IMG/VR virus record: IMGVR_UViG_3300032298_000091
Location: 1 to 33,343 of that record
Source: a virus
Strand: one strand, 5' to 3'
DNA length: 33,343 nucleotides
Position 1 is the first letter of the stretch; every line of letters begins with the position of its first letter. The notes beneath the pieces were generated by a model. It made no database searches. It was not told where the DNA came from and saw nothing but the letters and a program-made list of their open reading frames with translations. Shown here one piece after another: positions 26,676-29,392 of this stretch. The translations under genes were made by a program, and so were the position numbers.

Positions 26676-26879
26676 TTAAGGATTGCGTTTTGATTTAAGG
26701 TATCGAATAATTTCAATAGCCCCAGCCATACGTCCAGTTTGCCATGCGTTCATTTCATGGTCTGGGTATTGGTCTGGGTACATAGTATCGAGTTCTTCGA
26801 TAAGACGGTCAAGATCAATTCTTCCCCCAACAAGATTTGTAAGGGGAATGGTTTCGGTGTCAAAGTAGGCGTCAGCCAT
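26676..26879 (-). CDS. Small acidic protein after RNR beta (67 aa)
   Basis: A start at the ATG at 26879 gives MADAYFDTETIPLTNLVGGR and DLDRLIEELDTMYPDQYPDH, then a helix EMNAWQTGRMAGAIEIIRYL and a basic end KSKRNP. The upstream extension of the frame is only a shadow of RNR beta. ATGGCTGA overlap with the RNR beta stop suggests coupling. No family recognised. The HEMNAWQTGRMAGAIEIIRYLK pattern resembles small helical regulators found in other phages, but no function can be given. Confidence 0.65.
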   Translation of the reverse strand: MADAYFDTETIPLTNLVGGRIDLDRLIEELDTMYPDQYPDHEMNAWQTGRMAGAIEIIRYLKSKRNP

Positions 26880-27600
26880 ATTGTGGAAGATCAGTGTTTG
26901 CCGCCTCAAAGAAGGCGGGCATCCGAGCACGTTTGGTATCGGATAGGCCGGGGGCCTTACCCTTTTCGTAAAGGGAATCTGATTGAGACAACCAAAAATC
27001 CTTGTCGAGATACTTATTCGTTGAGGATTTTAACCCATCAACTACCCATCCAACAGTCGCTCTGCGAAGTCGATTGAGGCTTGGTGTGGACTTAAGGCCC
27101 AGCTCAGAACACACCATCGAGTGGACGGCAACGTGGGTTTGCTCGTCCCTTGAGATGTCTGCTGCTGTGGTACGGATTCCGATGTCTCCATTGAATCGGA
27201 AGAAGGGAAGGATGACGAAGAAGACACTGCGTTCAAGGATAGCGGCTTTTAAAAGAGGATGCTCAGGGGCATCTAGCCATGCCTTAAGAATGTGCTTTGC
27301 TTCTGATTCAAACTTTTCATCTGAACCATGAGCAGCTACTACATAGTTAAGAGCTTGATCATGCCTTTCTTCATCCAGTTGATTAGACAGGAGGGCTTCC
27401 CTAACACCAGGAGTTTTGGGTAGTTCCTTTTCAAGTCCCTGTTGAAGGAACTCACGGACTGGTAGTTCAAGGTGACGGAGTCCGAGGGCCCGAAATAGGG
27501 CGTCCTCAGATCCATCAACTACCTTCCCGCGTTGGACAGCGACAGGAGTCCATTTTCGCTTTCTAGAAATTACTTGATCATACGGACTGCTGTGCTTCAT
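26872..27600 (-). CDS. nrdB: Class I ribonucleotide reductase beta subunit, radical generator (242 aa)
   Basis: A ferritin-like dimetal protein that supplies the radical to the alpha subunit. Metal ligands can be placed by motif: Glu45 (HLELP), Glu77-x2-His80 (DEERHD), Glu123 (AILERSVFF) and Glu153-x2-His156 (RDEQTHV). Four residues after His80, where E. coli NrdB has the radical Tyr122, there is Leu84, so the usual tyrosyl radical cannot form at that site. It is shorter than E. coli NrdB (376 aa). The chosen ATG at 27600 overlaps the alpha stop as TAATG. The alpha/beta pair should be one translational unit. Without the paired-motif check this protein would easily be left as hypothetical. Confidence 0.85.
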   Translation of the reverse strand: MKHSSPYDQVISRKRKWTPVAVQRGKVVDGSEDALFRALGLRHLELPVREFLQQGLEKELPKTPGVREALLSNQLDEERHDQALNYVVAAHGSDEKFESEAKHILKAWLDAPEHPLLKAAILERSVFFVILPFFRFNGDIGIRTTAADISRDEQTHVAVHSMVCSELGLKSTPSLNRLRRATVGWVVDGLKSSTNKYLDKDFWLSQSDSLYEKGKAPGLSDTKRARMPAFFEAANTDLPQYG

Positions 27601-29018
27601 TATTCTCCACAAGGAATACAAATGTTATCTTTGGTTGATTCGGAAACAGACTCGTCAAAATTAAATAGCTCGTGATAATCTTCATCAAGAGCAGCAAGGG
27701 CATCATCCTTTGCTTGGGTATCAGGCATCACTTGAAGAGCATAATAGAGTGAGGTCTGAGAAGATGCCATCCATTCCCGTAGGAACGAACGGTCATAGGT
27801 AACTACATCGGACCAACTATTAAAGGAGTACCCATGAAAGAGCATCGTGGAGCGGAACAGAGTTACTATTCCATCAACTACCTTTTTGTAATCAGCCCAG
27901 CCGACCTCTGCTGCAATCTCACAGTCCGGCGGGTACGAATACGATTGGACTCCAAACGTCCCAGAATCGCGGTCAACGTGGCGGCTAATAGGAGGAGCCA
28001 ACTCAGGGGTGGTAGTGTAACCCCGTAGATCCACGTTGTTGTAACTACAAGAAGCGGTAGGAGCAATGGCAAAGGCCCGATGCATACCTGCTTGACGAGC
28101 AATTTGAGCCGCAATCTCAATTGATTTAGCCAGCTCAGAAACGAGTATGTACGCAGGTGTGTGTACTGGGAGGTGCGAAATGTACGCATCAAGGGCTTCT
28201 CCAAATTGTTTGTAGGTTATGCCATTCTGGCAGAGGAAGTTGGCAAGACCCAACACCCCCAGACCAACTTGGCGATCAGTCTCGGGGGCTAGGTACTCAC
28301 CTGTTTCACCAACACCTGTCTTAGCATGAAGCGCAATCAAGCTGCTCATACCTTCAACAAACGCAGGGGTAAGATCACCTAATTGACAAGCACCCAAATT
28401 GACGTGCTGAAGAAGACAAGTGCCACGACTAGGTAGATAAACTTCGAGGCAGACATTTCCATAGATTCGATTTCCTTCTGCGTCGTAGCGGATCTTATTG
28501 AGCCAGATGTCGCCCTTCTTAATACCATCAATGGTAGCTTCGATCAGTTCAGGTGGAGCACTGGTTAAGAATCCAGCATCCACGTTAAGACATCGTTTGA
28601 CCCATGCCAGATCTGTGCGAGAGGCTTGGATAAACTTGATAGCATCAGGGTGCTGGTAGTCAAGATGCAACACCACAGCACCATTTTTGTAGACACCACC
28701 GCGACGAAGGGTTTCATTCAGAGCAGAATAAATACGAGCAAAAGAAACAGGACCAGAAGCAGTGAGCCCTCTACCGTTGTCAGCACCTTCTTCACGTAGT
28801 TTAGAAAGGTGAACAGCAACTCCTGCGCCATTTCGTAGCGCGTGAGATACAAAACGCCATGAGGCTTCAATGCCTTCTGGACCCTCCATAGAGTCCTCAA
28901 CAACGAAGACCGTACAGCTGACGGGAAGGCGCGATTCAGGGTTGTCAATCCAATTTTGAACACGTCCAGTTCGGGCAATGGTGTTGGGGGTGTCCCCGAT
29001 GTCAGCGTAGGCAGTCAT
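27600..29018 (-). CDS. nrdA: Class I ribonucleotide reductase alpha subunit, compact (472 aa)
   Basis: Reduces ribonucleotides to deoxyribonucleotides for phage DNA synthesis. Key residues by position: Cys35 and Cys201 (redox pair, like C225/C462 of E. coli NrdA), Asn188-x-Cys190-x-Glu192 (NVCLE, active-site N437/C439/E441), the radical-transfer Tyr425-Tyr426 (SLYYAL) and C-terminal Cys467/Cys470 (CIPCGE) for re-reduction. The Tyr-Tyr pair and the adjacent beta gene identify class I rather than the B12-dependent class II. There is no ATP-cone; the protein is about 290 residues shorter than E. coli NrdA, so allosteric control is probably reduced. The start overlaps the MazG-like stop as ATGA. 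Confidence 0.9.
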   Translation of the reverse strand: MTAYADIGDTPNTIARTGRVQNWIDNPESRLPVSCTVFVVEDSMEGPEGIEASWRFVSHALRNGAGVAVHLSKLREEGADNGRGLTASGPVSFARIYSALNETLRRGGVYKNGAVVLHLDYQHPDAIKFIQASRTDLAWVKRCLNVDAGFLTSAPPELIEATIDGIKKGDIWLNKIRYDAEGNRIYGNVCLEVYLPSRGTCLLQHVNLGACQLGDLTPAFVEGMSSLIALHAKTGVGETGEYLAPETDRQVGLGVLGLANFLCQNGITYKQFGEALDAYISHLPVHTPAYILVSELAKSIEIAAQIARQAGMHRAFAIAPTASCSYNNVDLRGYTTTPELAPPISRHVDRDSGTFGVQSYSYPPDCEIAAEVGWADYKKVVDGIVTLFRSTMLFHGYSFNSWSDVVTYDRSFLREWMASSQTSLYYALQVMPDTQAKDDALAALDEDYHELFNFDESVSESTKDNICIPCGE

Positions 29019-29392
29019 ACTAGGTCGTCAAGAAATGGTGGTTTGTAGTCGGGCCCCTTGAGAATCTTACCATCTTCGCGGCGGAGGGGCTTACCGTCAA
29101 CGAACTTACTCATGTTGGATTCGAATACCCGCTTCATAGCGGTGTCTAAATTCCAGTTACGAGCAATGGCATATTGATAGCAGACGAAAACAAGATCTGC
29201 TAGTTCCTTTAAGGTGTGTATCCTATCGGCTACAACATCCTCATTGATGTGAGCTTCCATCAATTCATCAAACTCCTCCTTAATCAGAGTGAGTTGCATG
29301 TCTTGAGTTAGTTCATCATCCGGGTCAATAGATTGTTCAGCGGCTAGTCGAAAAACGAAAGCCTGTTCAATCAGGTGTTCGGGGGTTTTCAT
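29015..29392 (-). CDS. MazG-like nucleotide pyrophosphohydrolase (125 aa)
   Basis: The all-alpha NTP-PPase pattern is present: IKEEFDELMEA (the EExxE metal site) and LKELADLVFVCYQYA (ExxD site), followed by VFESNMSKFVDGKPLRREDG and a KGPDYKPP tail common in phage members. These enzymes hydrolyse (d)NTPs or related nucleotides, possibly alarmones or damaged nucleotides; the substrate cannot be told from the sequence. It sits directly before RNR alpha in a dNTP-supply cassette. Its start overlaps the DUF3310 gene by 26 nt. It is smaller and different from the MazG of T4-like cyanophages. Confidence 0.8.
   Translation of the reverse strand: MKTPEHLIEQAFVFRLAAEQSIDPDDELTQDMQLTLIKEEFDELMEAHINEDVVADRIHTLKELADLVFVCYQYAIARNWNLDTAMKRVFESNMSKFVDGKPLRREDGKILKGPDYKPPFLDDLV

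Follow-up and report, generated by a model that had tools for sequence, protein, structure and literature searches.

How does a ribonucleotide reductase (RNR) begin its radical chemistry when its beta subunit has leucine at the position where the radical tyrosine should be? The question is raised by a gene pair in IMG/VR virus record IMGVR_UViG_3300032298_000091, all 33,343 bases of which make up the stretch of DNA analyzed here (the window), itself a fragment. Our preferred explanation, with a probability of about 0.7, is that the pair is a class Ø (Cyano SP) RNR of a T7-like cyanophage, in which a beta subunit without the tyrosine holds the oxidant on its metals and relays it to C190 of the alpha subunit.

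A minus-strand RNR pair in a T7-like phage genome

The gene content is that of a T7-like phage genome, with the RNR pair on the minus strand. DNA polymerase, exonuclease, DUF3310, and MazG-like genes come before the pair and portal, scaffold, capsid, and tail genes after it, an order that matches Syn5, SS120-1, and other cyanopodoviruses. The genes of the locus are as follows.

27600..29018, minus strand: alpha, catalytic subunit of the probable class Ø RNR, 472 amino acids (Pfam, PHROG, NCBIfam, and PDB searches; motifs)
26872..27600, minus strand: beta, R2-like ferritin fold, 242 amino acids (phrog_6799, conserved ligands, AlphaFold, Foldseek)
29015..29392, minus strand: MazG/PRA-PH-like nucleotide pyrophosphohydrolase, directly upstream of alpha and a usual neighbor in cyanopodoviruses

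The alpha stop and beta start share one base at TAATG, and an overlap of a few bases is also present in Syn5, SS120-1, and other cyanophages. A program-made list of open reading frames began beta at a TTG seven codons upstream; this start was set aside for the ATG at 27598-27600, which overlaps the alpha stop and from which beta residues are numbered here. An unannotated open reading frame of 84 amino acids (window positions 26676-26930) overlaps the end of beta, and Syn5, SS120-1, S-TIP28, and P-SSP7 have a short open reading frame at the equivalent place.

No DNA nearly identical to the window was found among the named phages in the collection searched, and to judge from that collection, the exact phage has not been cultured. 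The beta protein matched 56 phage records, nearly all from cyanophages and all but one at more than 50% identity. The nearest isolates, at about 61-66% identity, are Syn5, SS120-1, and S-CBS4 (64-66% for the beta of Syn5 and SS120-1). All three share the CXXC tail of the window alpha and carry Lys at beta position 49; S-CBS4, however, is not a T7-like phage and differs in gene order.

The alpha subunit resembles the class Ø enzyme of S-CBP4

The initial annotation, made from the sequence alone, described an alpha subunit with an NxCxE active site, two redox cysteine pairs, a Tyr-Tyr dyad, and no ATP-cone, and each of these features was recovered at the expected place.

28449-28451, minus strand: alpha C190, the catalytic Cys in the NVCLE finger loop (N188-V-C190-L-E192), from the codon
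27741-27746, minus strand: alpha Y425-Y426, the radical-transfer dyad, from the codons

The active-site pair C35/C201 and the C-terminal pair C467-IP-C470 (CIPC) were read from the sequence, and a Pfam scan of the 472 residues found no ATP-cone, with a barrel domain as the sole match. Against the PDB, alpha matched 7urg, the cryo-electron microscopy structure of the S-CBP4 class Ø alpha, at an E value of 4e-201, and the next match was at 4e-9. The homology extends over residues 13-447, within which C185, C30/C196, and Y420/Y421 of S-CBP4 (PMC9531940) correspond to C190, C35/C201, and Y425/Y426 of the window at a constant offset of +5. The NVCLE motif, which has been reported as a class Ø-specific, diagnostic finger loop (PMC9669993), was present in 212 of 213 alphas in which the motif could be read, and the dyad occurred in 228 of 231 alpha rows. 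In S-CBP4 the two tyrosines are stacked next to the catalytic Cys and occupy the space taken by the adenosyl group in class II enzymes (PMC9531940). The window alpha ends in CXXC and that of S-CBP3, a phage related to S-CBP4, in CXC; the pair is another member of the CXXC group, considered the more ancestral by Burnim 2022 (PMC9531940).

The beta subunit keeps its metal ligands and lacks the radical tyrosine

The metal ligands that had been proposed for beta, Glu45, Glu77, His80, Glu123, Glu153, and His156, were confirmed by codon at the numbering from the ATG, as was leucine at position 84. The residues that matter for the argument are the following.

27466-27468, minus strand: beta E45, metal ligand (codon read)
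27454..27456, minus strand: beta Arg49 (codon CGT), four residues after the first ligand Glu, as Lys71 is in class Id; the sister clade has Gly here
27370-27372, minus strand: beta E77, metal ligand (codon read)
27361-27363, minus strand: beta H80, metal ligand (codon read)
27349..27351, minus strand: beta Leu84 (codon CTT), at the position of E. coli Y122 and C. trachomatis F127 (alignments, codon read)
27232-27234, minus strand: beta E123, metal ligand (codon read)
27142-27144, minus strand: beta E153, metal ligand (codon read)
27133-27135, minus strand: beta H156, metal ligand (codon read)
26878..26880, minus strand: beta Tyr241, second-to-last residue, which presumably relays the radical at the interface as Y356 does in E. 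coli (alignment; S-CBP4 Y239, PMC9531940)

The only model that names beta is phrog_6799 (7e-115). Pfam and NCBIfam models gave no match to it, and a single-sequence search of the PDB gave none even at an E value of 10, after which a 90-row beta profile was used. The profile placed the Chlamydia class Ic NrdB (Mn/Fe, with Phe at the Tyr site) first, although weakly (E=0.11), with its E120, H123, and F127 on E77, H80, and L84 and its D226, E227, and H230 on D152, E153, and H156. At that E value, the alignment provides independent support for the register of the Tyr site and agrees with the motif.

Conservation was assessed in 227 distinct aligned beta rows from viral contigs, genomes, and named phages. 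Of the 225-226 rows with a letter at the six ligand positions (EEH/EEH), essentially every one keeps the ligand; W17, D152, Y241, and the second-sphere residue D76, which stands just before ligand E77, are invariant. Position 84, missing in 2 of the 227 rows, is Leu in 199, Phe in 26, and Tyr in none. Since the ligand set is kept and this position takes only Leu or Phe across the family, Leu84 is not a chance substitution. Mapping the Leu/Phe label onto a 59-row beta tree requires two changes; one gain of Phe within the CXXC side followed by one reversion to Leu fits this count and may be one history among others.

The missing tyrosine is not a new observation, because it was reported for P-SSP7 by Harrison 2019, who proposed a new class I subclass (PMC6370689), and for the whole group by Burnim 2022, who described Phe or Leu in place of the radical Tyr together with a C-terminal Tyr and separated the group as a clade of its own, class Ø (PMC9531940). 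The window adds one member to a published family. The initial annotation noted that the P-SSP7 enzyme had been moved from class II to class I; the kinship with P-SSP7 holds, whereas the class I assignment has been overtaken by the separate clade (PMC9531940). P-SSP7 (PMC6370689) has the same gene pair, the ligands E, E, H, E, E, H, Leu at the Tyr site, and second-sphere residues D70 and D146, equivalent to D76 and D152 of the window, but its beta is only 52% identical and it belongs to the other subclade, marked by CXC and Gly49. S-CBP4, whose beta is 55% identical, likewise has a small beta directly downstream with a penultimate Tyr and belongs to a family with Phe or Leu at the Tyr site; its clade has Gly49, in contrast to Arg49 of the window.

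The window beta has only five tyrosines (residues 7, 86, 197, 211, and 241). Y86 is the only one within a ligand-bearing helix, and it lies about 160 degrees around that helix from L84; it is conserved in 95% of the family, and some full-length relatives carry Phe, Met, Leu, or Asn instead. The sole invariant Tyr column is Y241 (223 of 223), in a tail modeled with pLDDT below 50. The residues at E123 +4 and +5 are invariant Phe, and that at +8 is Leu. In E. coli R2, the tyrosine pocket is lined by F208, F212, and I234, at E204 +4, E204 +8, and E238 -4; the corresponding beta residues F127, L131, and I149 are invariant or nearly so. A Tyr within 7 angstroms of the metals, the finding that the initial annotation had set against its own proposal, is judged unlikely from helix position and family conservation, because Y86 faces away and is replaceable, Y241 is in the low-confidence tail, and the pocket positions are not Tyr. 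Tyr134, found in the Phe84 lineage, was considered as a substitute radical site and rejected in the case of the window: its beta has Phe at this position, which is 11 residues, or about three helical turns, past E123.

Predicted fold of beta

The AlphaFold2 model of beta, built from the 90-row alignment, is an all-helical bundle (pLDDT 89.4, pTM 0.85). In a Foldseek search, seven of the eight PDB matches with E values of at most 0.001 were C. trachomatis class Ic NrdB, and the betas of classes Ia, Ib, Id, and Ie ranked after class Ic. The matches are modest (TM scores mostly 0.53-0.60, identity 17-19%), and the predicted structure supports an R2-like fold more firmly than it does a class Ic mechanism. 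Like the window beta, C. trachomatis NrdB has a redox-inert residue at the Tyr site and Glu as its first ligand; it differs in being about 100 residues longer, with 17-18% identity, and in having Phe rather than Leu and Glu119 rather than Asp76.

Class assignment and proposed mechanism

The alpha shows the class Ø combination of homology to 7urg, the NVCLE loop, a short chain without ATP-cone, and a CXXC tail, and the beta is a ferritin-like protein of about 240 amino acids, directly downstream, ending in ...QYG, with Leu84 and the E/EXXH ligands. Burnim 2022 described the beta as lacking the C-terminal extension by which class I beta binds alpha (PMC9531940), a point that counts against the preferred explanation. 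The first metal ligand is Glu in classes Ic and Id and Asp in Ia and Ib (PMC6370689, Table 3), and E45 places the window beta with the former two. As in class Ic, whose cofactor is Mn(IV)/Fe(III), the Tyr is replaced; the second-sphere Glu of that class (E119 in Chlamydia), however, is D76 here, and on this residue the pair does not qualify as class Ic. Class Id has a conserved Tyr at the radical site, kept back from the metals; all 225 rows have Leu or Phe there, and for want of the Tyr the pair does not qualify as class Id, but the basic residue of that class at the first ligand Glu +4 has a counterpart in R49. The initial annotation had offered both classes as precedents: both do store the oxidant on metals, but Id keeps its Tyr, and class Ic alone is a precedent for its replacement (PMC8463856, PMC6370689).

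The RNR pair would probably supply deoxynucleotides during infection. We infer a complex in which beta, a minimal R2-like helical bundle around a two-metal site, most likely keeps a one-electron oxidant on the metals, as Mn/Fe in the manner of class Ic or Mn/Mn in the manner of class Id; storage on the metals is favored because no conserved Tyr is near them. The oxidant would pass by way of W17/D152 to the C-terminal Y241 and across the interface to Y426/Y425 of alpha, ending as a thiyl radical on C190. Substrate reduction would fall to C35/C201, with the C-terminal CIPC then restoring this pair to its reduced state.

The older nrdJ annotation, still attached to the P-SSP7 alpha, would instead make alpha a cobalamin-dependent, class II-like enzyme and give the ferritin-like protein an accessory role in place of radical generation. 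The window alpha does score better with the class II model NrdJ_Z (5e-20) than with the class I model NrdE_NrdA (7e-16), an outcome that the initial annotation had counted against a beta-dependent enzyme. Given the conserved YY dyad and beta gene, however, the better score does not make alpha class II, and class II-leaning scores are the published behavior of class Ø alphas. The dyad fills the adenosyl space of class II in S-CBP4 (PMC9531940), the finger loop reads NVCLE rather than the usual NPCXE of class II (NrdJ), and beta, a subunit that class II does without, adjoins alpha with all its ligands in the cyanopodovirus records examined; a cobalamin-dependent enzyme is therefore highly improbable. 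It is only slightly easier to accept a class I beta with its tyrosyl radical elsewhere, either on another Tyr that nears the metals or stored on Y241. The invariance of Y241 and the strong conservation of Y86 speak for such a radical, but Y241 is in a poorly modeled tail at the place expected for the relay residue Y356, and Y86 points away from the metal side and is swapped for other residues in full-length relatives, so that we regard it as very unlikely.

Within the preferred explanation of a metal-stored oxidant, one sub-case is a class Id-like dimanganese cluster activated by superoxide that the basic residue 49 draws in. In class Id, Lys71 lies at ligand Glu67 +4 and has been proposed to attract superoxide (PMC8463856), and Arg or Lys has this same offset in the window clade; the Glu first ligand also agrees with class Id, as does, weakly because the window is a fragment, the lack of NrdI among the open reading frames scanned in it. 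Gly at position 49 in 136 rows, Gly in the Chlamydia class Ic enzyme as well (G93), the first place of class Ic in both the fold and profile searches, and the Tyr that class Id keeps all weigh against this cofactor, which is possible but less probable than not.

Position 49 divides the family

Among 226 beta rows, position 49 is Gly in 136, Arg in 56, and Lys in 31, with Arg and Lys marking the window clade. Gly93 of the Chlamydia class Ic protein aligns with this position in the weak profile alignment (E=0.11). Phe84 always occurs with Lys49, Tyr134, and His160 (26 of 26 rows), as in SS120-1, which unlike the window combines Phe84 with Lys49 and Tyr134. Leu84 occurs mainly with Arg49 and His160 in the window clade or with Gly49 and Asn160 in the P-SSP7/S-CBP3 clade. 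In a nonexhaustive search of the literature, we found no earlier description of this split.

It is conceivable, though doubtful, that class Ø beta has more than one type of active site, with class Id-like superoxide capture without a Tyr in the Arg/Lys49 clade and class Ic-like chemistry in the Gly49 clade. The residues at positions 49, 84, 134, and 160 largely follow the family tree, and inheritance alone may explain the pattern. If the proposal is true, the smallest known beta would, by either route, represent a metal-stored radical initiator of a distinct kind. The split between Arg/Lys49 and Gly49 offers a contrast by which the activation routes can be tested directly.

Significance and occurrence elsewhere

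No RNR known is more minimal than class Ø, which has been proposed as the ancestor of classes I and II. Burnim 2022 found the beta protein unstable and left the metals unresolved (PMC9531940), and a 2026 preprint still calls the class biochemically uncharacterized (PMC12918982). Because the family admits only Leu or Phe at the Tyr site and no Tyr column close to the metals is fully conserved, storage of the oxidant on the metals becomes the default hypothesis.

Burnim 2022 reported beta directly downstream in all complete class Ø operons (PMC9531940). In Microcystis phage Mic1 (MN013189.1), beta (61615-62385) and alpha (74745-76064) are about 12 kb apart, and the two genes are also nonadjacent in related IMG/VR contigs; the Mic1 beta is very divergent, at 35-37% identity to that of the window. 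In Limnothrix sp. CACIAM 69d (MKGP02000036, 3582-5711), a class Ø pair lies between metE and a prolyl-tRNA synthetase-like gene and is apparently chromosomal; this cyanobacterial metagenome-assembled genome (MAG) also has a class II RTPR, and a Chloroflexi MAG contains a close relative of the pair. Calothrix membranacea FACHB-236 has a class Ø beta (contig positions 4998-5717) and a class II RTPR; no class Ø alpha was found in its 8.8-Mb draft assembly, and the beta was absent from eight other genomes of the genus. MAG contigs labeled Planctomycetota, Verrucomicrobia, and others were set aside as cases of cellular class Ø: several group with phage sequences in the beta tree, and misbinning of phage contigs could account for them. 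Some deposited phage records, such as AY939843.2, annotate alpha as class II (nrdJ), and beta is annotated as hypothetical or, in S-B28, apparently as "periplasmic thiol:disulfide oxidoreductase."
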